Source: Ruminiclostridium herbifermentans
GTDB taxonomy: Bacteria > Bacillota > Clostridia > Acetivibrionales > DSM-1351
Direction: 5' to 3'
Assembly: GCF_005473905.2 (NCBI RefSeq)
Contig: NZ_CP061336.1
Coordinates: 1,038,501 to 1,102,500 of the forward strand
Length of the DNA: 64,000 nt
In this document: piece by piece, positions 24,884 to 36,968 of the stretch
Position numbering within the stretch: the first letter of the stretch is position 1
How the letters are laid out: the number at the start of each line of letters is the position of its first letter
Notes under the pieces: generated by a model
What the model was told of the DNA's origin: nothing
Databases searched by the model: none
What the model saw: only the letters and a program-made list of their open reading frames with translations
Program-made: the position numbers and the translations under genes

Positions 24884-26413
24884 TTACCTAATTCTCTTTA
24901 AAGGTTTTATAGCAGGACCTTCGATAACATTGCCTTTAAAATCAAACCTTGATGCATGGCATGGACAGTCCCATGTTTTTTCGGCGGAATTCCAACGCAG
25001 TTCACAGCCTAGATGGGTACAGGTTGTATCAACAACGTAGATACAGCCATCTATGTCACGATATGCACCAGCTTTTTCTCCGTCCATTTTAACAGGTTTT
25101 CCTTCTTCCAAATCCAAGCTAAATTTTTCTGGTAAAGATTTAGTCTTTCCCTCAATTAGATTTTCCACAACATTCAAATTTTGAACATAAAAGTTTTTAG
25201 AAAAAACAGGCTTAAGTCTATTTGGCGCAAAAATATACTCATAAGGACTGCTCCCTGATATGATTAAATCTCTGATAATCATAGCTGCCGAGGTGCTGCT
25301 GGTCATACCCCATTTTGCAAAGCCTGTGGCAACAAATATATCCTTTTTTGAAGAAGTAATATTTCCTATATAGGGGATATCATCCATGACAGTATAGTCC
25401 TGTGCTGACCAACGATAAGGAATATCAGCAGCAGAAAATGTATTTTTTGCATACAAAATTAAATTTTTGTAGTGTTCATTTTCTTTATCATCTTGCCCAG
25501 TTTTATGATGTTCTCCACCAATTAAAATTAGTTGTTCATCGTTTTCAATTGGCTGATATCTCAACGATCTGGTAGGCTGCTCATAAGATATATACATTCC
25601 TCCTGGGAATTTATTGGGGGATTTTGCAGCAACCACATAGGAACGTTCACCATACATTTTTGTTGCATATAGTCCCCATCCATCATAAAATGGGAATTGC
25701 GTTGTTATAATTACTTTATTTGATGAGATACTGAAGCCGCCTTTTATTGAGGTTACACAATTATCACCATGATGTATATCTAAAGCAGTTGTATTTTCAA
25801 ATATTTGTCCGCCTTTTTTTGTGAATATATCGGCTAATGCAAGCAGATATTTTCTTGGATGAAATTGAGCTTGATTATCAAAGCAAATGGCACCTTTAAT
25901 TTCTAATGGAAGTGGTAAGCTGGATTTATAGGATGCAGGCAAGCCCAAAGAAATAGCTGCATTAACTTCTTCTTCAATTTTTGAAATATATTGTTCGTCT
26001 TGAGTAAATACATAGTTAGGTTGTCTGCTGAAATCACATTTTATATTATTTTCAGAGATTATTTTATCTATTACAGAAATTGCTTTTTCGTTTATTTGAC
26101 CATAGATGAGAGCACCCTCGTTGCCAATTTGTTTTATTAGTTTCGCATATTTTAAATCATGTAAAGAAGTGATTTTAGCAGTAGTATGTCCGGTAGCTGC
26201 TGCTGCAATTCTATTAGTATCAATAAGAACAACATCGAACCCTTCCTTTTGAAGGATATAAGCCGTAGTTATACCTGTAATACCACCGCCAATTATCAGG
26301 ATATTAGTTTTTATATTACTTCCAAGTTGAGGATAGTTCGTTTGTGGTGTAGAAGCTATCCAATAAGATTCTGGGGCTTTAATAAAAGTCTTTTCTACTA
26401 AATTTTGTGGCAT
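24884..26413 (-). CDS. FAD-dependent oxidoreductase with C-terminal Rieske domain
   Basis: A 509-residue protein. The N-terminal two-thirds is a DAO/DadA-type FAD domain with GGGITG near residue 41 and a later ATGFAKWGM segment for the flavin. The last 80 residues are a Rieske [2Fe-2S] domain with CTHLGC and CPCHAS cluster motifs. In this family electrons probably pass from an amine or similar donor through FAD to the Rieske centre, but the substrate is not known. It is monocistronic behind GGAGACAAT. Confidence 0.85.
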   Translation of the reverse strand: MPQNLVEKTFIKAPESYWIASTPQTNYPQLGSNIKTNILIIGGGITGITTAYILQKEGFDVVLIDTNRIAAAATGHTTAKITSLHDLKYAKLIKQIGNEGALIYGQINEKAISVIDKIISENNIKCDFSRQPNYVFTQDEQYISKIEEEVNAAISLGLPASYKSSLPLPLEIKGAICFDNQAQFHPRKYLLALADIFTKKGGQIFENTTALDIHHGDNCVTSIKGGFSISSNKVIITTQFPFYDGWGLYATKMYGERSYVVAAKSPNKFPGGMYISYEQPTRSLRYQPIENDEQLILIGGEHHKTGQDDKENEHYKNLILYAKNTFSAADIPYRWSAQDYTVMDDIPYIGNITSSKKDIFVATGFAKWGMTSSTSAAMIIRDLIISGSSPYEYIFAPNRLKPVFSKNFYVQNLNVVENLIEGKTKSLPEKFSLDLEEGKPVKMDGEKAGAYRDIDGCIYVVDTTCTHLGCELRWNSAEKTWDCPCHASRFDFKGNVIEGPAIKPLKRIR

Positions 26414-26684: not shown

Positions 26685-26725
26685 AGGCTATCTTCAATAT
26701 GCTTTTAACATATTAAAGATAGCCT
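26685..26725. terminator. terminator of the peptide/maturase operon
   Basis: AGGCTATCTT pairs with AAGATAGCCT, with a further AATATG/CATATT stem inside. T-rich DNA follows on the minus strand, 20 bp past the maturase stop; A/T runs on both sides allow bidirectional use. Confidence 0.9.
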
Positions 26726-26744
26726 ATTTTTATATATTTAATAT

Positions 26745-28271
26745 TTATGCTTTTAGCATCTGATAAAAGGCTTCGCTTTGCTTTTTGAATTCATCTGAAA
26801 TTGAACGACCTTCTTCAAGAACAGATAAGGCTTCTTCATTTCTTCCATTTTCACATAAAATAACAGCTAGATCATGGAAAGGATCAGTGTATTTTCTGTC
26901 AGATAAATCAATAGCCTTTTTTAAGTATAAAATACCATTTTCAACATCGCCAAGCTTTGCGATAGATAGCCCATAACCCTTGTTTATATATGGATCTGAC
27001 GGATACTTTTCAATTAGTTTTTTATTGGCTTCGTAAGACTGTTTATAGTTTTCAAGCATAAAAGAAACATATCCATATAATTTTAATGCTTCTTCATTAT
27101 CAGGTTCTGCCAAGAGTACTTTAGATAATAGAAGTTCTGCCAGTTGATTGCTGTTGTTATCAGCAAATTTCTGGGCCTTTTCAAGCATAGTTTGAACATC
27201 AGTAAGCCTTTCAAATTGGGCTTCTGCTTTTTTTATAGCATAATTATATGAACAATAAGTATTTTCGGCATAAACAGATTTTCCGAGTGTTAACTTTGTA
27301 TTTCCGCAGCCCCCTAGACATCTGTTACCAAATAGACATTTTTGACAGATACCTGATAGCTTATCCTTTGTCATTTCACGGTTCCAAGAGAAGCTTGTTG
27401 GATCATTCCATATATCTATCAAAGATTTTTCACGAATATTTCCTTCAATGAACTCTCTGTTTCTGATAGAAGTACACCCAACAACATCGCCATTATGTAA
27501 TATACCTAGCCCATATTTACCTGCAGCACAACCGTTCCATGAATATACATCGCCTTCACGGGCTTTTCTTCTGATTTCAATTTCTTTTTTGTTAAAGTAA
27601 CCTATACAATCAGCAAGCTGAATTTCGACACCGCCTTTAATCATAGCATTGTAGGCGAAATCGATTAATTGGTCAACATGATGAGGTTGAGTTACCAATT
27701 CTGAATTTTTAGACATATTACCCATAGGAAGACCAAGCTGTAGCTGCCATCCGAAAATATGTTTTTGAGAAAGGATATTGTGTATTTCATTGAGTTCATT
27801 TAAGTTAATATTATTAATAGTGGTTATAACTGAGCAGTTTAAGCCGTTTGCAGTCAAAATATCAATTGCACTCATAATTCTATCATAAGAGCCTTCTTTT
27901 CTAATAAAATCATGTGTGCTTTTGAGACCATCCAAGCTAAGCGCAACAGTATTTACACCTGCTGCTTTGGCTCTTTTTGCAATGTCATCATTCATAAGCC
28001 AGCCATTAGTAATCATATTGGGTATTACACCATTATCATTTAATCTTTTTGCAATGAGATCCCAGTCTTTTCTAGTGGTTGGTTCTCCACCAGATAGTGT
28101 AATCCATCGAAACCCAAGCTTTCCTATATCGTCGCACAGTCTTAAGGCTTCATCTGTAGTAAGCTCTCCATCAAGCGGATTTTCACAGGATGAACCACAA
28201 TGCTTGCATCTTAAGTTACATCCCATTGTTATTTCCCATACTCCTGTAATGGGTCTATACTCTACACTCAT
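26745..28271 (-). CDS. radical SAM/SPASM peptide maturase with TPR tail
   Basis: A 508-residue protein. The radical SAM cluster motif CxxxCxxC is at Cys18, Cys22 and Cys25, followed by a GGEP motif near residue 61. A SPASM-type region with Cys near 248 and a cluster around 310-350 (CQKC, CLGGC) would bind auxiliary Fe-S clusters. Residues about 375-505 are TPR helices, which may bind the precursor. Such enzymes make C-C or thioether crosslinks or epimerise residues in ribosomal peptides. It sits 108 bp downstream of a double-glycine precursor gene, from which a strong hairpin separates it, and ends the minus-strand operon. The bond it forms is unknown. Confidence 0.85.
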   Translation of the reverse strand: MSVEYRPITGVWEITMGCNLRCKHCGSSCENPLDGELTTDEALRLCDDIGKLGFRWITLSGGEPTTRKDWDLIAKRLNDNGVIPNMITNGWLMNDDIAKRAKAAGVNTVALSLDGLKSTHDFIRKEGSYDRIMSAIDILTANGLNCSVITTINNINLNELNEIHNILSQKHIFGWQLQLGLPMGNMSKNSELVTQPHHVDQLIDFAYNAMIKGGVEIQLADCIGYFNKKEIEIRRKAREGDVYSWNGCAAGKYGLGILHNGDVVGCTSIRNREFIEGNIREKSLIDIWNDPTSFSWNREMTKDKLSGICQKCLFGNRCLGGCGNTKLTLGKSVYAENTYCSYNYAIKKAEAQFERLTDVQTMLEKAQKFADNNSNQLAELLLSKVLLAEPDNEEALKLYGYVSFMLENYKQSYEANKKLIEKYPSDPYINKGYGLSIAKLGDVENGILYLKKAIDLSDRKYTDPFHDLAVILCENGRNEEALSVLEEGRSISDEFKKQSEAFYQMLKA

Positions 28272-28293
28272 TTTATCCTCCCTATTTAATGGG

Positions 28294-28316
28294 GGATGCG
28301 GATAAACTCCGCATCC
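28294..28316 (-). other. hairpin between precursor 1 and its maturase
   Basis: GGATGCGGA pairs with TCCGCATCC (9 bp, 5-nt loop). In the transcript it precedes the maturase ribosome site by about 15 nt and lacks a T run, so it may be a partial terminator or a processing/stability element lowering maturase relative to precursor. An almost identical hairpin is at 28908-28930. Confidence 0.65.
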
Positions 28317-28327
28317 TAAGTTTTCAT

Positions 28328-28343
28328 AATACCTATAGGAATA
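28328..28343. promoter_or_regulatory. CCTATAGG box 1
   Basis: CCTATAGG at 28332-28339 within an imperfect palindrome AATACCTATAGGAATATT. The octamer occurs four times in this locus: here and at 28628, 28946 and 29264. Operator function is inference. Confidence 0.35.
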
Positions 28344-28379
28344 TTATGTACTTGATACTAAATATAATCAGTTTGAGAA

Positions 28380-28601
28380 TTACTCGATTTCTGGTTTAAT
28401 TCCATATAATGGTATAATTGGACCTGGTTCAATACCATATAGTGGTTTTACATCAATAGGAGGAATTTTAATTCCGTAAAATAATCTAATTGGTGGTTCG
28501 ATTTTTGCAGATGATGAAAGGGAGTCAGATACATAACCTCCTACCATATCTAATAATTCCTCATCACTCAATTCAATCATTTTTTTGATTTCATTTTCCA
28601 T
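28380..28601 (-). CDS. RiPP precursor peptide with double-glycine leader and YGI-repeat core
   Basis: 73 residues from ATG 28601, with AAAGAGG just upstream (a longer frame starts within the ribosome site). Residues 1-22 form a leader MENEIKKMIELSDEELLDMV ending GG, the class II bacteriocin/C39-peptidase cleavage type. The core from Tyr23 is rich in Pro and Ile and repeats F/L-Y-G-I-K/E at residues 41-45, 54-58 and 65-69 with PP, PGP and KPE spacers. It has no Cys. Cleavage after Gly22 by the C39 exporter at 31667 and modification by the adjacent radical SAM enzyme are inferred. I do not recognise a named precursor family. Confidence 0.8.
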   Translation of the reverse strand: MENEIKKMIELSDEELLDMVGGYVSDSLSSSAKIEPPIRLFYGIKIPPIDVKPLYGIEPGPIIPLYGIKPEIE

Positions 28602-28623
28602 ACTATACACCTCTTTCAATAAA

Positions 28624-28639
28624 TTTACCTATAGGTATT
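28624..28639. promoter_or_regulatory. CCTATAGG box 2
   Basis: TACCTATAGGTA (12-bp palindrome; octamer 28628-28635) in the 5' region of the YGI-repeat precursor gene, between a TATAAT-like stretch and its ribosome site. Confidence 0.35.
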
Positions 28640-28769
28640 ATGAGTCCCTTTATTATTATATTATGGAAATTATACTTTATAAACATATTTTGTTAAATAT
28701 TAAAATAATTTTAATTTATTTTACAAAATTTTGTGGGAAATATACAAAACAATTAGAAAAAAGTCATTA

Positions 28770-28886
28770 AAAATCTGAATGAGTCTGAGGGTATTCTAAT
28801 TTTTATGCAATTGAAAATATAACTCTTAAATTACATTCCATTATTATTTTCAATATACCTGTAATAGGTCTATATTGAAAAGACAT
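28770..28886 (-). pseudogene. decayed radical SAM maturase: start and end fragments fused
   Basis: On the minus strand a frame starts at ATG 28886 and stops at 28803. Its first ten residues, MSFQYRPITG, match the MSVEYRPITG start of the intact maturase at 28271, and the match continues as a degraded MxCNLR segment. Directly after it, 28770-28800 resembles the last codons and stop region of the PqqD-type maturase gene at 29390-29420 (TGAGT-TGA-GGTAT pattern in common). The fragment lies after precursor 2 exactly where the intact maturase lies after precursor 1, preceded by the same hairpin. It reads as a duplicated maturase gene that lost its middle. Confidence 0.7.
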
Positions 28887-28907
28887 TTTATATTGCTTAT
28901 TTAATTG

Positions 28908-28930
28908 GGATGCGGATAAATTCCGCATCC
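28908..28930 (-). other. hairpin between precursor 2 and maturase remnant
   Basis: Same 9-bp stem as 28294-28316 (GGATGCGGA/TCCGCATCC, loop TAAAT). The flanks are also copied, including the CCTATAGG box at 28946-28953, which proves duplication of the whole intergenic unit. Confidence 0.7.
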
Positions 28931-28941
28931 TAAGAATTTAT

Positions 28942-28957
28942 AATACCTATAGGAATA
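28942..28957. promoter_or_regulatory. CCTATAGG box 3
   Basis: AATACCTATAGGAATATT, identical to box 1 and in the matching position after the precursor 2 coding region (octamer 28946-28953). Confidence 0.35.
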
Positions 28958-28995
28958 TTATGTATTAAATAATTTAAAATATTACTGAGTTTGTA

Positions 28996-29166
28996 TTACT
29001 TTATAATATTTATAATGTCCTTAATAATTGAAATTGAAGGCTTAACTCCGTATAACAATACTGGTAAACTTGAAGCTATTGGAACTAAGTTTGAAGAATA
29101 ACCACCTACCATATCTAGTAATTCTTCATCACTTAGTTCAACCATCTTATTGTTTTCTATCTGCAT
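28996..29166 (-). CDS. RiPP precursor peptide 2 with double-glycine leader
   Basis: 56 residues from ATG 29166, fixed by GAAAGGAG upstream. The leader (residues 1-22, ending ELSDEELLDMVGG) is almost the same as in the other precursor, and Tyr23 again starts the core. The core is shorter, hydrophobic and holds one L-Y-G-V-K-P motif (residues 38-43), followed by Ile/Lys-rich sequence. Leader conserved and core diverged is the usual pattern for RiPP paralogues sharing a maturase and exporter. It is followed by the remnant maturase rather than a working one, so modification in trans would be needed. Confidence 0.78.
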   Translation of the reverse strand: MQIENNKMVELSDEELLDMVGGYSSNLVPIASSLPVLLYGVKPSISIIKDIINIIK

Positions 29167-29208
29167 GATATTCACTCCTTTCAATTAAATTTTTTTAATA
29201 AAATTATC

Positions 29209-29264
29209 TTAAATAAAACTTCTTAAATAAAACTTCTTAAATAAAACTTCTTAAATAAAACTTC
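29209..29264 (-). repeat. four tandem copies of a 14-bp unit in the precursor 2 leader
   Basis: TTAAATAAAACTTC is repeated four times without change at 29209-29222, 29223-29236, 29237-29250 and 29251-29264. The array lies between the CCTATAGG box at 29264 and the ribosome site of precursor 2. The corresponding region of precursor 1 lacks it. Copy number could vary by slippage and alter the 5' UTR. Confidence 0.9.
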
Positions 29265-29389
29265 CTATAGGCATTAGAAGTTACAATTCTATTATATTAT
29301 GGAATGTTGTAATTAAAATACATATATTTCTAAAAAACTATAAATATTGTTAATTAACCATTTTATGCTAAAAATAAACAAAAAATTAA

Positions 29390-30856
29390 TCAAATATCTA
29401 ACTGAGTTTGAAGGTATAATTTTTGTATATTAATTTGCTTGCAATTTGTTTTATCCCTATCTTTATTATGTGCACATGGGCCTAATTTGTTTGTACATAA
29501 AAATCTGAATTCGCATTTTGTACAGGATTTATCATCCATTTGATTTATTGGCAGTTTTGCTCTGATATTTTTAAAAACATCATTTTCAAACATCTTTGCC
29601 AATGAATCAGTTTGTATATTACCAAGCTTATAATCATCGTTTTCAAAGCATTGGCATGGGAATACATCTCCATTGCTGGTTACGAAAAAGGATGGATAGC
29701 ATGCAAGAAGATTAGGTGTTTTAGGAGGTATAAATCTGCCGCCATGGCCAAAAGAAAAGATATTAATTGTTCTAGATATTTTATTATTCTTACCTTCTAT
29801 TTGGGCTTCATCTAAATATGTTTTACGCAAACTGTGAGCCACTTTGGTTATATAATCTTTTTCATTAACAGAAAGAAAATTATCTACTTCAGGATCATCT
29901 ATCTTACCATATTGGGTCATTGACCAAGAAAGAGTACAATTACATAATCTTTTACTTATTTCTGAAACGAGAATATCAAGGGAATTTATGTTTATTGCAG
30001 AAACTATAGGCTTTATAGTTATACTTAGTTTTTTAGTTTTTAGTGAGAATTCATTTATTCTTTCAAATGCTTCAAATATTTTATTTTTTACATCAGAATT
30101 TGGATTTCCCCATAATGCATCTAGTTCTTTGTCTACTATACTATCTAAGCTTATTGTAAAACCATCAACGCATTCGGAGAGCTCTTCAATATTCATAGAA
30201 TTCAAAAGCGTGCCATTAGTTATAAAATGGGTTTCTAAACCTATTCTTTTGGCTTCATTGCAAAGGTCTGTCAAGTCAGTATTTAATGTAGGTTCACCAC
30301 CAGTAAAAATGACTTTTTTACCACCCATATCCTTAAATTCTCTTAACAAATTGATAAATTTATCTTTTGATACTATTGAATTTGATTTTTTATTTATTCT
30401 CTTATGTCTTTCGTTTTTATTAAAGCAATAGATACAGTTTAAATTACACTTATCTGTTAAGCTTATATAAATATCATTAAAAGGGTATTTTTCTATTGCA
30501 TTGATATCATAAATTTCATTCATCCAGTCAGCCTCTGGAGGGGTATGGTTATATGACAAGAAACCATTTTGTATTAAAGCCTCAATAAAAGGAATAACAT
30601 CTTCATTAAATATTGAGTCATTAATTTGATATTGATTAATTAACTTTTCTTTGACAATTCCTAGATTATTACTATTATGAATTGCATTATATATTGATGC
30701 TCCTATTTCATCCATTGCAATCCAATAATGTATTGATGGATTAAATAATATATATGTATTTTGATCATTTTCAATAATAGACTCATAATTATCAACTTTG
30801 TATAAATAATTAGTGTAATTATCAAATAATGCAATATTTTCGTTTATGTTTTGCAT
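29390..30856 (-). CDS. radical SAM/SPASM peptide maturase with PqqD-like N-terminal domain
   Basis: A 488-residue protein. Residues about 25-110 resemble a PqqD-like RiPP recognition element (ILFNPSIHYWIAMDEIG then helices). The radical SAM motif CNLNCIYC is near residues 138-145, followed by a GGEP motif near 180. A C-terminal SPASM region has CYPSFF, CQCFEN and CTKCEFRFLC cysteines for auxiliary clusters. It lies 99 bp after the 67-residue peptide gene and 220 bp before precursor 2, so it belongs to the same operon. A recognition domain plus SPASM is typical for maturases that bind a leader and crosslink the core. Confidence 0.85.
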   Translation of the reverse strand: MQNINENIALFDNYTNYLYKVDNYESIIENDQNTYILFNPSIHYWIAMDEIGASIYNAIHNSNNLGIVKEKLINQYQINDSIFNEDVIPFIEALIQNGFLSYNHTPPEADWMNEIYDINAIEKYPFNDIYISLTDKCNLNCIYCFNKNERHKRINKKSNSIVSKDKFINLLREFKDMGGKKVIFTGGEPTLNTDLTDLCNEAKRIGLETHFITNGTLLNSMNIEELSECVDGFTISLDSIVDKELDALWGNPNSDVKNKIFEAFERINEFSLKTKKLSITIKPIVSAININSLDILVSEISKRLCNCTLSWSMTQYGKIDDPEVDNFLSVNEKDYITKVAHSLRKTYLDEAQIEGKNNKISRTINIFSFGHGGRFIPPKTPNLLACYPSFFVTSNGDVFPCQCFENDDYKLGNIQTDSLAKMFENDVFKNIRAKLPINQMDDKSCTKCEFRFLCTNKLGPCAHNKDRDKTNCKQINIQKLYLQTQLDI

Positions 30857-30955
30857 AAGATATCCCCTTTTACCTAAATTTTATAAGCAGGCCTATTCAA
30901 GTAATTAAAATATCAAAGTAACTAATAATCCTATATAGAAATACTTATGTATAAA

Positions 30956-31159
30956 TTATTTTTTTGTTAATATGTCTATTTCATCTTTAAAGTCGAATGG
31001 GTTTGCAATTATACCACTTAGTGGCGGAAAAATTTTAATATCAATTGGCAATTTAATGGATGTTATTCCTCCGTTTGTTTCAAGGGATTCTTTTTCTGAT
31101 ATTTCATTTAGGTTTAATTTATTAAAATTAGGCTTTTGTATTGATGGCTTTTTCCACAT
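30956..31159 (-). CDS. putative third precursor peptide, 67 residues
   Basis: Starts at ATG 31159 behind TAGGAGGT. The N-terminus is Lys/Asn-rich, then a helical acidic stretch NLNEISEKESLETN ends in GG at residues 30-31, resembling a leader, and the rest is Pro/Ile-rich (KLPIDIKIFPPLSG). It lacks the ELSDEELLDMVGG sequence and the YGI repeats, so it is a different class from precursors 1 and 2. It is the first gene of the minus-strand operon, directly before the PqqD-type maturase, which is the normal place for a substrate. An alternative is a small accessory protein. Confidence 0.65.
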   Translation of the reverse strand: MWKKPSIQKPNFNKLNLNEISEKESLETNGGITSIKLPIDIKIFPPLSGIIANPFDFKDEIDILTKK

Positions 31160-31581
31160 AATAAAAATACCTCCTAAAATATTTTTTGTAAGATAATACC
31201 TGAAATGGCCTGCATATACAAATTATACCATAAATCTAAATTAATGTAAAACATTGATTGTAAACTTATCGATATATTAGTCGGAATTACTCTTTTCTTA
31301 TAATATTTGATGAAATAATGGACACTATTTTCTTTAATTTCACTTGTCGAGTCTGTTAAGATTGAAGGTGTATTTGTACTAAATCCTGCAAATACACTTA
31401 CAATTTACAGTAGTGCCAATTTTGCTTCCTTTAATATTTTTGGATTTTAAAATTAATGCTTGATTTTTAATAGGATAAAAAGATGCTTTTAATCATTTTA
31501 GTCCAATTTTTGTCGAATAAAGAATGTTTAGGTAGTGTTTACAAAATTAATATTCAATAGTAACATTATTATTAGAAAGAC
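31160..31581. promoter_or_regulatory. divergent control region of the peptide locus
   Basis: About 420 bp between the peptide/maturase operon (minus) and the exporter operon (plus). It must hold both promoters. No coding frame with a ribosome site is present; the plus-strand leader ends in the terminator listed next. Confidence 0.5.
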
Positions 31582-31622
31582 GGTGTGAATAGCTGAAAAT
31601 ATTAGTAGTTCACATCTTTTTT
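31582..31622 (+). terminator. terminator in the exporter leader
   Basis: GGTGTGAA pairs with TTCACATC (8 bp, one G-U) and a CTTTTTT run follows, only 45 nt before the exporter ATG. No plus-strand gene lies upstream, so it looks like an attenuator controlling the exporter operon. Confidence 0.7.
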
Positions 31623-31666
31623 AGCAGGGTTCACAAAATAATGCAGATACAAATGGAGATTTACAT

Positions 31667-33982
31667 ATGCAAAATCCGTTTAAACGATATTATTGTATCA
31701 AACAGCATGATATTACCGACTGCGGTGCGGCATGTCTTGCGACGATAAGCAAGCAATATGGGTTTAAAACATCAATAACCAAAATAAGAGAAGTTGCGGG
31801 AACAGATAAACAGGGAACTAATGCATATGGAGTAATTAAAGCAGCAGAAGTCCTTGGTTTTACTGCAAAAGGAGTAAAGGGCGATAAGGAAGCCTTTTTT
31901 TCCGAATTTCCTCTGCCCTGTATCGCACATGTCGTTGTAGAAGGTACTCTTTTGCACTATGTAGTTATACATAAAATTACAAAAAAGCAGGTGCTAGTTG
32001 CTGATCCAGGTAAAGGTATTATAAAATATTCGCCTGAGGATTTCTTTAAAATCTGGACAGGCGTGCTTATACTGATGGTTCCCAATGCAACATTTAAAAA
32101 GGGTGATGAGACAAAGGGGCTTTTTTCGCGTTTCTTCAATTTAATGTTGCCGCAAAAAAGACTATTAATTAATATATTCTTTACTTCTCTTATATACACC
32201 ATGTTAGGTATTACAGCATCCTTTTATTTTACATTTCTTTTAGATGACATACTTCAATATAATCTTGAAAAAACCTTACATGTAATATCAATAGGGATTA
32301 TTTTGCTATATTTGTTTCAAACCTTGCTTGGGGCATTCCGTTCCCATATGGTGTTATATCTTTCACAAAAGATAGATATACCGCTTATATTAGGGTATTA
32401 TCAGCATGTTCTTGGACTTCCGATGAATTTCTTCGGAACAAGGAAAGTGGGAGAGATAATTTCTCGTTTCATGGATGCTTCAAAGGTTCGTGATGCAATT
32501 TCAGGTGCAACGCTTACTATAATGATAGATACGCTAATGGCTGTTGCTGGAGCCATAATTCTATATACTCAAAATTCCATGCTTTTTGCAATAACAGTAA
32601 TAATAGCGATAGTGTACGGGGTAATTGTATTTTCATTTAATAAACCCATCAAAAATGTTAATAAGGAGCAAATGGAACATAATGCCCAATTAACTTCTTA
32701 TCTGGTGGAGTCATTAAATGGAATTGAAACTGTAAAAACCTTTAATGCAGAGTGGGAGGCGTCAATAAAGACAGAAGGCAAGTTTATAAAGCTTCTCAAA
32801 GCAATTTTCAAGGGAGGAATTATAAATAATCTTCAAAGTTCCATAACAAGTTTTACGGCACTTGTAGGGGGTGTTGTTATCCTTTGGGTTGGTGCTTGGA
32901 ATGTTATTAAAGGTAATATGACTGCTGGTCAGTTGCTATCCTATAATGCACTTTTGGGATATTTTCTTGAACCAATAAAAAATCTGATAAATCTTCAGCC
33001 AATGTTGCAAACTGCTATTGTAGCTTCTGACAGGTTAGGTGAAATATTTGATCTTGAACTGGAAAAAGGGGAAAATGAAGATAAGAAAATAAAACCTTCA
33101 GATATAAAAGGAGATATTTGCTTTCAAAACGTGGATTTCAGATATGGTACTCGTGCAATGGTATTAAATAACATAAATCTGACCATAAAGTATGGGGAAA
33201 AGATTGCCTTTGTCGGCGAGAGTGGTTCTGGTAAAACCACTTTGGTAAAGCTGCTTATGAATCTTTACCCTTGGGAAAAGGGCGAAATAACCATAAAGGG
33301 GTACAATGTCAAAGACATAAATTATGATGTATTGAGAGAAAAAATTGCATATATATCTCAAGACATTTTTATGTTCAGTGGTACTATACGAGAAAATTTA
33401 TGCCTGGGAAATAAAAATCTTGAAATGGAAGAGATAATCGAAGCATGCAAAATGGCTCAGGCTCACGATTTTATTAATAAATTTCCTCTACGATATGAAA
33501 CTAATTTAGAAGAAAACGGTGCAAATTTATCTGGAGGTCAAAAACAGAGACTTGCCATAGCTAGAGCTATTCTAAAAAAACCAGATATATTCATAATGGA
33601 CGAAGCTACTAGTAATTTAGATTCAATTGCAGAAAAGGCTATCGAAAAAACAATTGAAACAGTATGCAAAGGAGTTACAACAATAATAATTGCTCATAGG
33701 CTAAGCACTATTAAGCGTTGTGACAGAATATATGTTATGGAAGAAGGCAAGATAATTGAAATAGGCAGTCACTTTGAACTTATGAGCAAAGGTGGCAGAT
33801 ATTATGAGCTTTGGAAGGAACAACTGCCTGACAACATAGAGGACAATAGTGTTAAAAGTACAAATGATAATGTATCCAAAAATGAAAATACATGCTATGA
33901 TGTTAACTCAAAAAAAGAAAACACACTTAATAGGGATATGCTTTCTAATGTAGCAGTGTCATCTGCTCAGACTGGAGAATAA
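31667..33982 (+). CDS. peptidase-containing ABC exporter (C39, bacteriocin type)
   Basis: A 771-residue fusion. Residues 1-130 are a C39 cysteine peptidase with catalytic Cys19 (DCGAAC), His97 and Asp113, which cleaves double-glycine leaders. About 155-430 is the membrane domain, and 460-720 is the ATPase with Walker A GESGSGKTT near 517, LSGGQ near 621 and IMDEAT. The last 50 residues are a polar tail. It should process and export the GG-leader peptides encoded divergently. It starts an exporter operon with the HlyD-type gene. Confidence 0.93.
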   Translation: MQNPFKRYYCIKQHDITDCGAACLATISKQYGFKTSITKIREVAGTDKQGTNAYGVIKAAEVLGFTAKGVKGDKEAFFSEFPLPCIAHVVVEGTLLHYVVIHKITKKQVLVADPGKGIIKYSPEDFFKIWTGVLILMVPNATFKKGDETKGLFSRFFNLMLPQKRLLINIFFTSLIYTMLGITASFYFTFLLDDILQYNLEKTLHVISIGIILLYLFQTLLGAFRSHMVLYLSQKIDIPLILGYYQHVLGLPMNFFGTRKVGEIISRFMDASKVRDAISGATLTIMIDTLMAVAGAIILYTQNSMLFAITVIIAIVYGVIVFSFNKPIKNVNKEQMEHNAQLTSYLVESLNGIETVKTFNAEWEASIKTEGKFIKLLKAIFKGGIINNLQSSITSFTALVGGVVILWVGAWNVIKGNMTAGQLLSYNALLGYFLEPIKNLINLQPMLQTAIVASDRLGEIFDLELEKGENEDKKIKPSDIKGDICFQNVDFRYGTRAMVLNNINLTIKYGEKIAFVGESGSGKTTLVKLLMNLYPWEKGEITIKGYNVKDINYDVLREKIAYISQDIFMFSGTIRENLCLGNKNLEMEEIIEACKMAQAHDFINKFPLRYETNLEENGANLSGGQKQRLAIARAILKKPDIFIMDEATSNLDSIAEKAIEKTIETVCKGVTTIIIAHRLSTIKRCDRIYVMEEGKIIEIGSHFELMSKGGRYYELWKEQLPDNIEDNSVKSTNDNVSKNENTCYDVNSKKENTLNRDMLSNVAVSSAQTGE

Positions 33983-34142
33983 ATGTGTATTGCTCCCTAA
34001 GTTAGAAAAATAGGGTGATTAGTATAAAAATGCGAAAGTTACATTTTAATTAAAAATATTTTAGGTGTTTTAGCCATAAAGCAATGAATATACACTTTTT
34101 TATATTTATGTCGCTATTGGTGCCAGCGAAATGGAGGGTAAC

Positions 34143-36017
34143 ATGAAAGATATAATAATAGATATAGACGACCTTACAGACAGTCGTGAAATGTATCGTT
34201 CAAAACCGCATTCCTTTGTATGGGTATTTACATATATTATTATTGGTTTGGTAATAGCAGCTATATTATGGGCAAGCTTTGGAAAAAAGGAAATTGTAAT
34301 TAAAGCAAGTGGACAAGTAAGACCTGAAGTAGGTATAGGTACAGTTAATAATAATATCGCAGGAGAAATTGAAAGTATAAATTATAAGCAGGGCATGACT
34401 GTAAAAGCTGGTGATATATTATACATAATCAAGCATGATAATCTCTTGGTGGAGAAAGAGGCTTATGATACTCAGCTTACTGACCTTCGTAAAGAATTAG
34501 CAAATCTTAATATGTACAGAAAATCAATTGTTTCTGGTACAAATGCATTTGACAAAGACAGTGAGCCAATGTACTTCGAAAAGGTTAGGAAGCTGATGAT
34601 GGATATCCACTACACTCAGACAGATACAAATTATAAAATTACAAAGCTAAAAGAGGAGCGCCGTATCAATAGCAGTCAGCTTTCCGATTATCAGACTGAG
34701 CTAGCTTGTTTAAAAAACTATATAAGGTCCTTAGATGAAAGTAAGAATTACTTAGCTAGTAACAGTGAAATTGAAAAACGATACATCAAAAAGTATGAAA
34801 ATTATATATTTTCCCAGAAGGATATTGAGCGTAAATTTGACCAACAGTCGGATGAAATTAATAAAAATAGCTTTGAGGCTTTAAAGCAAGCTCTAGAAGA
34901 AGAAAGAAAATTATTAGATGCTTATGAAACTCTCAAAAAAAGTGTTAACGTGGGAGAAAACTATTTTTCTGTAAATGACAGTTACAAGACACTTTATACG
35001 GATTATATATATGAACTCAATACCCTTAAAAACACATATGATGAGCTAAAACGTGTGTATGAGTCTTATGAAGCGTTAAGTGGAGCAGCGATATCATATT
35101 CTGAGCTTGAAAATGCCAAAATTCAGATGCAGAAGGCAGAAGGAGAATATACCGTATTTAAAAGTAACTTTTTATCTGATTTAGATAAAACCATTACTCA
35201 AAAAAAGGTAAGAGTTGCTGAACTAGAAAGCAGTGTTTCAGGGACTCTGGATAAAGACAGACTTTTAGAGTTAAATGAAAAAGATAAAGAAAATGCCTTA
35301 AAAAGGCTTTATATTAATGAGAGACAGGTTGCTTCTGATTTAATGGATAGTTTGACAAACAAAATAAATTTGCTCAGACTCAATATAGAATTAGGAGAAG
35401 CTGAATTAAATACAATTTTAGACGCTACTGGTAAAAATAATATCAATTTTTCACTGGTAGAAAGGTTAAAGTCTCAAGAGATTATAGCAACTGATGAAAA
35501 AATTAAAAATACTTCTGATAAAATAGCGTCAATAGAACAGAACATAAAAAGACTGCAATTAGATATTGATAGAGCTATAGTGAGAGCTAATATTGACGGA
35601 GTTGTAAACGTAATATCGCAAATATATAAAGGTGATTTCGTACCAAGCGGAAGAGAGATTTTGACAGTAATACCAGACAATAATTCTAGTTTTATAATGC
35701 AAATCAATATTAACAACCAGGATATTGGAGAAATAAATATAGGAGATGCCGTTAAGTATAGTTTTGCTGCACTTCCATATCGGGAATACGGTCAGATAAC
35801 GGGAAGGATAATCAGCATATCGCAGGATTCAATAATTGACAAGAACTCAGGACAAAGTTTTTATATTGTTGAGGCTACTGTTCCGAATACTAAGCTTTAT
35901 ACTAAAGCAGGAAAACAGGGAGATATTAAAGTAGGTATGCTGTGTGAAGCAAATATCGTAACTAAGCAAAAAAGTTATTTAGAGTACTTTCTGGAAAAGA
36001 TAAATTTTTTGGAGTAA
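34143..36017 (+). CDS. HlyD-family secretion adaptor
   Basis: About 624 residues from ATG 34143, with GGAGGG just before it; an in-frame ATG at 34131 lies upstream of that site. One membrane span (about residues 18-38), a split biotinyl-lipoyl-like domain (AGEIESINYKQGMTVKAGD and its partner AIVRANIDGVVNVI), and a long coiled coil between about 95 and 465. Such adaptors work with C39 exporters in Gram-positive bacteriocin systems. The coiled coil is long for the family. The gap of 160 bp to the exporter suggests one operon. Confidence 0.88.
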   Translation: MKDIIIDIDDLTDSREMYRSKPHSFVWVFTYIIIGLVIAAILWASFGKKEIVIKASGQVRPEVGIGTVNNNIAGEIESINYKQGMTVKAGDILYIIKHDNLLVEKEAYDTQLTDLRKELANLNMYRKSIVSGTNAFDKDSEPMYFEKVRKLMMDIHYTQTDTNYKITKLKEERRINSSQLSDYQTELACLKNYIRSLDESKNYLASNSEIEKRYIKKYENYIFSQKDIERKFDQQSDEINKNSFEALKQALEEERKLLDAYETLKKSVNVGENYFSVNDSYKTLYTDYIYELNTLKNTYDELKRVYESYEALSGAAISYSELENAKIQMQKAEGEYTVFKSNFLSDLDKTITQKKVRVAELESSVSGTLDKDRLLELNEKDKENALKRLYINERQVASDLMDSLTNKINLLRLNIELGEAELNTILDATGKNNINFSLVERLKSQEIIATDEKIKNTSDKIASIEQNIKRLQLDIDRAIVRANIDGVVNVISQIYKGDFVPSGREILTVIPDNNSSFIMQININNQDIGEINIGDAVKYSFAALPYREYGQITGRIISISQDSIIDKNSGQSFYIVEATVPNTKLYTKAGKQGDIKVGMLCEANIVTKQKSYLEYFLEKINFLE

Positions 36018-36590: not shown

Positions 36591-36968
36591 ATGAAGAAAA
36601 TAAGATTATCTATGTTATTAGTAATTGCTCTGTTTATAGCTTCGAGCATTTCAGCTTTCGCCTGCACTTATACTGTATCTGTATATCGCAGTAACACGGC
36701 GACAACTTATTATTATAAAGATGGCACAACCTCGACCACATATAGTTGGGACAATTCAAACTATCATCCTAACATCTATTATTCGGAAACCCGTTATGGG
36801 TATACACATAGTGGTGTACTACCAAGTTATGCTACATCATCAGGTCCTGTAAGTACTTACTACCCTACAAATCCAGACGCTGTTAATTGGATTAAATATA
36901 CGGTTAAAACATATACTACAAATTATAGAGGCAGTATAAGTAACTCTGTATGTAGTACAGCAAGGTAG
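36591..36968 (+). CDS. small secreted Tyr/Ser/Thr-rich protein
   Basis: 125 residues behind TTGGAGG. Residues 1-24 are a Sec signal peptide (MKKIRLSMLL..., cut likely after AFA). The mature chain of about 101 residues begins with Cys25, ends with a second Cys near 121 and is dense in Tyr, Ser and Thr, suggesting one disulfide and a beta structure. It has no double-glycine leader, so it is not a C39 substrate. Candidate roles are a secreted bacteriocin of the lactococcin 972 kind, an immunity or binding protein, or a cell-wall protein; I cannot assign it. It sits between the exporter and the lipoprotein genes. Confidence 0.7.
   Translation: MKKIRLSMLLVIALFIASSISAFACTYTVSVYRSNTATTYYYKDGTTSTTYSWDNSNYHPNIYYSETRYGYTHSGVLPSYATSSGPVSTYYPTNPDAVNWIKYTVKTYTTNYRGSISNSVCSTAR

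Follow-up and report, generated by a model that had tools for sequence, protein, structure and literature searches.

What peptide chemistry is encoded by a bacterial locus in which two radical S-adenosylmethionine (SAM) enzymes lie among small precursor genes with double-glycine leaders and cores devoid of cysteine? The locus in question occupies positions 26,685 to 36,017 of a 64,000-nt stretch of the Ruminiclostridium herbifermentans genome (contig NZ_CP061336.1, positions 1,038,501 to 1,102,500; this whole stretch is referred to below as the window). A preliminary description identified it as a locus for ribosomally synthesized and post-translationally modified peptides (RiPPs) with Gly-Gly leaders, radical SAM maturation, and a C39 exporter. 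That identification stands, as do the placement of the genes, the leader end shared by two precursors, and the Pro-rich character of the third peptide, as judged by open reading frame (ORF) translations. Its view of one system with two maturases does not: the genes make up two precursor/maturase pairs, one of which occurs separately elsewhere. Precursors P0001 and P0002, with the enzyme P0004, very probably constitute a splicease (spliceotide) system, to judge from their sequences; P0003 and P0005 are taken to be a second, independent pair, separate from it. The genes concerned are:

26745-28271, minus strand: P0004, radical SAM/SPASM enzyme with C-terminal tetratricopeptide repeats (TPR), proposed splicease (Pfam, tree, model)
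28380-28601, minus strand: P0001, precursor of 73 amino acids, with three X-Tyr-Gly (XYG) sites in the core (FYG, LYG, LYG)
28996-29166, minus strand: P0002, precursor of 56 amino acids, with a single XYG site in the core (LYG)
29390-30856, minus strand: P0005, radical SAM/SPASM enzyme with a weak PqqD-like N-terminus, a second and separate maturase
30956-31159, minus strand: P0003, Pro-rich precursor paired with P0005

Precursor cores

The P0001 and P0002 leaders both end in ELSDEELLDMVGG, with Gly-Gly at residues 21-22, and the P0003 leader ends in ETNGG. None of the three cores contains a Cys, which rules out thioether chemistry of the sactipeptide or ranthipeptide kind, as the preliminary description had concluded. 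Each YGI or YGV in the P0001 and P0002 cores is an XYG site. Searches of NCBIfam and Pfam gave sub-cut-off matches only for the three precursors (in NCBIfam, to leader ends), with no nif11 or NHLP match for P0001 or P0002, whose leader is short and of the Gly-Gly type, and no DUF1843 match for P0001-P0003 in Pfam. Precursors first thought unplaceable can nonetheless be placed by their XYG cores, though not by way of NCBIfam or Pfam cut-offs.

The pairing of peptide and maturase is conserved in relatives, a check that the preliminary description had proposed. A P0004 homologue was found at E 1e-60 in 14 of 119 genomes (own genome included), and in all 14 the contig with the enzyme also holds a P0001-like match, no more than 2.4 kb away. 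Counted per enzyme place, such a neighbor is present at 16 of 17, the miss being contig 19 of Anaerobacterium chartisolvens (G035). Some of the 14 matches, with E values of up to 0.08, are weak taken alone, yet leaders and XYG cores can be plainly recognized in them. The cores consist of PLYGIKP-like or KYGIxP-like units strung together. In another 14 genomes the P0001 matches are all weak (E > 0.012), and the E 1e-60 search gave no P0004 homologue.

So as not to select by the motif itself, cores were also picked by leader only, from 101 stretches (the window part, 96 loci, and four plasmid loci), with identical cores merged. Thirty-three of the resulting 49 cores contain YG, for a total of 100 occurrences, whereas 5000 shuffles averaged 12.5 and never exceeded 26. 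In 98 of the 100, the next residue is Ile or Val. The 16 cores with no YG include 12 from Syntrophomonadaceae loci. In a further count, over the 80 named loci (the best 80 of 93 relatives; the 96 loci include some genomes twice), 55 have one or more XYG-type motifs in a small ORF near the enzyme, compared with 22-37 for five control motifs, and 28 have such an ORF with two or more, compared with 2, 2, 3, 4, and 12.

Some XYG precursors have quite different leaders: GGIGLIPLYGIKPLYGITPLYGIKE in Bacteroidales (L109), RTLYGIIQAARPLYGIIQPARPLYGIA in Spirochaetales (L108), and RPVPLYGIVRPLYGVPLK in Methanosarcina (L150). PIRPLYGIEPP of R. sufflavum and PPIRLFYGIKIPP of P0001 are strikingly like the PlpA2-derived tag PIRP-L/G-YGLPI (PMC10533398). 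Repeated KYGYP, LKYGI, or LYGI motifs also occur in longer proteins beside related enzymes (L116 1350-2072, L117 5980-6639, L111 8167-8940, and L112 831-1382, the last with a dockerin-like end by eye), so that whole proteins may conceivably be spliced.

The P0004 enzyme

Both maturases had been described as radical SAM/SPASM enzymes, one with a TPR tail and the other with a PqqD-like domain. The first two points hold, with Pfam matches of P0004 to Radical_SAM, SPASM, and TPR_19 (31.6 bits, cut-off 25), whereas the PqqD-like domain of P0005 is weak (17.7 bits, under the 23.4 cut-off in Pfam). The best NCBIfam matches of P0004 are to TIGR04103, which we take to be the same as IPR026482 (220 of 725 bits), and to the GDL maturase family TIGR03913 (211 of 591.75 bits). 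As a control, P0011 of Nostoc sp. C057 scores over the TIGR04103 cut-off (853 vs. 725 bits); it is flanked by a nif11 precursor ending SIALYGLPPELF (LYG) and by a 71-amino-acid protein at the PlpY position. P0004 is 33% identical to P0011 over 347 residues, 34-36% identical to GDL enzymes, and 83% identical to the R. sufflavum enzyme. Relatives at 35-38% identity with no XYG-type ORF within 3 kb are found in L126, L128, L138, L140, L141, L144, L145, and L148.

In a tree of 51 rows (42 of 91 kept rows plus nine further proteins), P0004, P0011, and the GDL enzymes form one group with support of 92/97; six other radical SAM proteins of the same genome, P0005, NirJ, and two Bacteroidales proteins fall outside it. 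The motif WQ[ILVM]Q...[MA]GN is present in P0004, P0011, P0014, P0016, and 56 of the 80 named relatives, and in neither P0005 nor any of six further radical SAM ORFs examined in this genome. The AlphaFold model of P0004 has a mean predicted local distance difference test score (pLDDT) of 81, is weak at about residues 18-28 and 301-319, and shows helical repeats at 341-507; its best solved Foldseek matches are PqqE, SuiB, and SkfB, with consensus TPR chains at ranks 48 and 50.

Relatives without the TPR tail, as judged by length, occur in cultured gut Clostridia, which makes the tail dispensable for some members. Two of these tailless enzymes, from Blautia caecimuris (L124) and an Agathobacter rectalis plasmid (L165), have nearly the same core (branch length 0.005), likely by recent transfer between the two gut genera.

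Proposed splicing reaction

In the cyanobacterial prototype, PlpXY excises tyramine at XYG, with MYG and LYG as natural sites and no leader required, and 27 other characterized and 939 predicted splicease systems have been reported (PMC10533398); PlpX belongs to IPR026482 (PMC11002830). Several splicing events are possible per precursor, and the products inhibit proteases (PMC10373908, PMC11117315). From sequence we infer for P0004 a reaction, a role for its TPR tail, a choice of exporter, and an activity of the products. P0004 would excise tyramine at XYG and rejoin the chain, with a predicted loss per site of C8H9NO, or -135.07 Da (computed here as 135.0684; the printed loss is 135.0757 Da, PMC10533398), and the product residue would be an alpha-keto-beta-amino (ketoamide) residue. 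All three P0001 sites and the one P0002 site are expected to be spliced, because of the published XYG mechanism and the tag-like motif. The TPR tail probably holds the substrate, the role of the separate PlpY in the prototype, since no PlpY was found and conserved positions continue through the tail in 16 aligned enzymes. A C39 exporter, most simply P0006 (see below), would cut after Gly22 and export the cores; spliceotides are among the cargo of C39 exporters (PMC10885120). The ketoamides would make the P0001 and P0002 cores protease inhibitors. The preliminary description had left C-C or C-O linkage or epimerization as the remaining chemistry, with a mass shift of -2 or 0 Da; this omits the tyramine excision favored here, for which the predicted shift is the loss given above.

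The P0004 system would be a variant of the splicease type, with a TPR tail, a short Gly-Gly leader, and repeated sites, because P0004 falls short of the TIGR04103 cut-off, the leader is not nif11, and there is no PlpY gene at the usual place. Among the papers listed by a literature search, none was seen to describe a splicease that is clostridial or has a TPR tail; the search did not reach the primary papers on spliceases, in which clostridial members may already be listed. A larger proposal is best kept tentative, being somewhat doubtful as a whole: that there is a TPR-fused splicease branch in Clostridia, Spirochaetes, and Bacteroidales, with the tail replacing PlpY, varied leaders, and multi-ketoamide repeat peptides, and that P0003/P0005 belongs to a RiPP class not yet described, in which a new radical SAM reaction acts on a core rich in Pro and Ile that carries the conserved L[ST]G..A motif.

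Evidence against splicing, and alternative readings

Several observations weigh against a splicease at this locus. P0004 is far below the TIGR04103 cut-off, and TIGR04133 (168 bits) and AhbD (167 bits) follow only some 50 bits behind. The 92/97 fork is below the tree tool's own mark (95/80), the outgroup branches are long, and the tree was made without PlpX, AhbD, and MftC. The window has no ORF at the usual PlpY place, and a tblastn search with the Nostoc 71-amino-acid protein, taken as PlpY by position only, found nothing under E 2 in the window and 96 loci (97 sequences), PlpY being small and divergent. Among the precursors, 25 of the 80 named loci have no nearby XYG-type ORF, including eight of the nine Myxococcales/Proteobacteria-type loci in L126-L148, and several of the 55 matches are incidental, within other genes. 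Three of six DUF1843 genes beside GDL enzymes were translated: one has YG, the others YM and YA. Finally, none of the FtsZ sites tried accepted the tag in its LYG form (PMC10533398, Table 1).

If P0004 is not a splicease, it could instead join the Tyr of YGI/YGV to a neighboring residue in a cyclophane or ether, with a shift of -2 Da at each site; several other SPASM RiPP enzymes make cross-links of this kind. A conserved aromatic residue at fixed spacing to Ile/Val, and often to Lys, Glu, or Pro, would suit such a reaction, and SuiB, which forms a C-C link, is among the best solved Foldseek matches, beside PqqE and SkfB. What stays fixed, however, is the pair Tyr-Gly, which is the motif of spliceases, and P0004 has TIGR04103 and TIGR03913 as its best relatives, with cross-linking families behind (WgkB 116.5, DynA 73.9, PapB outside the first 25 matches), so cross-linking is considered improbable. 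An epimerase, or another enzyme leaving the mass or the Tyr unchanged, appears very unlikely: mass-neutral radical SAM chemistry is common in RiPPs, but it gives no reason for a strict Tyr-Gly pair, and there is no epimerase family among the 25 P0004 matches listed.

The two maturases might also act on one product, P0005 on P0001/P0002 as well or P0004 on P0003 as well, and the two pairs do lie side by side, with their order unchanged, in both the window and R. sufflavum. Against this, a P0005 match at E 1e-40 is lacking in 11 of the 14 P0004 genomes; A. chartisolvens, a twelfth, carries P0005 and two P0003-like genes on a contig separate from its splicease loci; and the P0003 core contains neither Tyr nor Cys. 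A joint product is unlikely, because P0003/P0005 stands alone in Anaerobacterium. That the locus is decaying and makes nothing, which the truncated enzyme-start copy after P0002 might suggest, is hardly to be believed when the reading frames of both precursors and of the full-length enzyme are open, and when this enzyme is so close to that of R. sufflavum. A splicease system remains the preferred reading for P0001, P0002, and P0004.

As of a 2022 review, no natural spliceotide had been isolated and their role was unknown (PMC8868522). Both isolation and role would become directly testable with a locus this compact, which has Gly-Gly leaders of its own and a neighboring C39 exporter and belongs to a genus that includes cultured anaerobes.

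The P0003/P0005 pair

P0003 and P0005 were found together in three genomes: the window's own, R. sufflavum, and A. chartisolvens. With the own genome counted each time, P0005 has matches in 3 of 119 genomes (E 1e-40), 2 of 391 (1e-50), and 1 of 398 (1e-45), those in the draws of 391 and 398 being within the window's genus only, and no relatives at E 1e-15 in a plasmid collection. Four P0003-like precursors share MWKKP...NGG and the core motif L[ST]G..A. None of the NCBIfam matches listed for P0005 reaches its cut-off (best, 101 of 625 bits), P0003 has no NCBIfam score over a curated cut-off, and the predicted P0005 model has a mean pLDDT of 45. The pair may share its exporter with the proposed splicease system, and is a fresh target for enzyme discovery.

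Export

Divergent from the precursor and maturase genes, as first described, are:

31667-33982, plus strand: P0006, C39 peptidase/ABC exporter (TIGR01193 over cut-off; Pfam Peptidase_C39)
34131-36017, plus strand: P0007, HlyD-type adaptor (NCBIfam and Pfam profile matches)

P0006 matches TIGR01193 with 705 bits (NCBIfam cut-off 523.85). P0007 is below the cut-off for TIGR01843 (167.5 vs. 208.65 bits, NCBIfam) and above it for Pfam HlyD_3 (62.1 vs. 22.2 bits). C39 peptidases cut Gly-Gly leaders with hydrophobic residues at -4, -7, and -12 (PMC10885120): the P0001 and P0002 leaders, with M, L, and L at these positions, fit this rule, and that of P0003, with T, S, and I, fits it partly. A P0006 homologue is present in 10 of 15 fetched relative loci holding P0004, adjoining the enzyme in nine. 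In R. sufflavum, the exporter is 7.8 kb from the enzyme, and its surroundings, as seen by eye, hold further Gly-Gly peptides and a pair of regulators; P0006 may therefore have more than one peptide as cargo. Extra small Gly-Gly-type peptides, absent from the window, are encoded between the RiPP genes and the exporter there (L058 14640-16478).

Neighbors were tallied over the 96 loci with limits of 200 bits for P0006, 120 for P0004 and P0005, and 60 for P0007. The HlyD adaptor was considered as a fixed part of the system and rejected, with matches over the limit in three of the 96 besides the window (L081, L105, L114); the R. sufflavum stretch ends just past the exporter and is outside this judgement. 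Right after the adaptor gene, a small protein (36591-36968) whose start is signal-like and whose body is rich in Tyr, Ser, and Thr has no family over cut-off in NCBIfam or Pfam. On the other side, the gene after P0004 is oxidoreductase-like (24884-26413) and has a counterpart in R. sufflavum (L058 5649-7178); since it follows the enzyme in both, this flank is conserved.

Tandem duplication and possible control elements

The minus-strand genes would be read in the order P0003, P0005, P0002, P0001, P0004, followed by a terminator-like hairpin. The smaller features among them are:

26685-26725, minus strand: terminator-like hairpin 3' of P0004 (19 pairs, then a T run)
28293-28317, minus strand: strong hairpin between P0001 and P0004 (z-score -4.78 for the stretch 28272-28380)
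28624-28641, no strand: palindrome around ACCTATAGGT upstream of P0001 (repeat and pattern searches)
28803-28886, minus strand: initial codons of another P0004-like gene, left as a remnant after P0002 (ORF and DNA alignment)
28905-28930, minus strand: another copy of the P0001/P0004 hairpin, following P0002 (D3, a 65-nt direct repeat at 89%, with inverted pair I4)

Direct repeats around P0001 and P0002 (65 nt at 89%, 122 nt at 73%, and 64 nt at 73%) cover, in a DNA alignment, the leader as well as the hairpin and the initial codons of the enzyme gene; 3' of P0002, just the start of a P0004-like gene remains. By this alignment, P0001 and P0002 go back to the tandem duplication of a precursor/enzyme unit, after which one enzyme copy decayed.

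The hairpin between precursor and enzyme and the palindrome may be control elements. Palindrome-like sites are also found at 28331, 28945, and 29264 (partial), and upstream of the R. sufflavum precursor (L058). A wide regulon marked by the palindrome was set aside: it occurs at six places in the genome, three of them at the locus, and the reversed pattern gave two. Upstream of P0002 there is also an array of a 14-bp unit (29197-29264; 4.8 copies, 96% match).

Comparison with known systems

The Plp system of Pleurocapsa PCC 7319 (PlpX, PlpY, PlpA) has a related radical SAM/SPASM enzyme and XYG sites including LYG, and several sites in one precursor are possible there as well (PMC10373908). It differs in its nif11/nitrile-hydratase leader, where the present one is short and of the Gly-Gly type, and in having PlpY, where the present enzyme has a TPR tail, no PlpY gene was found in the window, and P0004 is under the TIGR04103 cut-off. 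The nif11-class maturase 3 locus on a Nostoc sp. C057 plasmid (L162) shares the enzyme motif, as WQIQLTVPMGN, and a neighboring precursor with LYG, but has a nif11 leader, one XYG site, the 71-amino-acid protein directly after the enzyme, and other RiPP genes nearby. The GDL maturases, found with DUF1843 peptides, resemble P0004 in sequence and fall in the same tree group, but have a Cys-rich C-terminal tail instead of TPR, and their peptides are built differently. Together these suggest one radical SAM core joined to different tails (TPR here, Cys-rich in GDL, a separate small protein in cyanobacteria), with the XYG site retained. In the TPR-tailed relatives of Acetivibrio, Pseudobacteroides, Herbivorax, and others, both the build of the enzyme and the XYG-repeat precursors are as here; they differ in having no adjoining P0003/P0005, and it is in R. 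sufflavum alone that the whole arrangement recurs.

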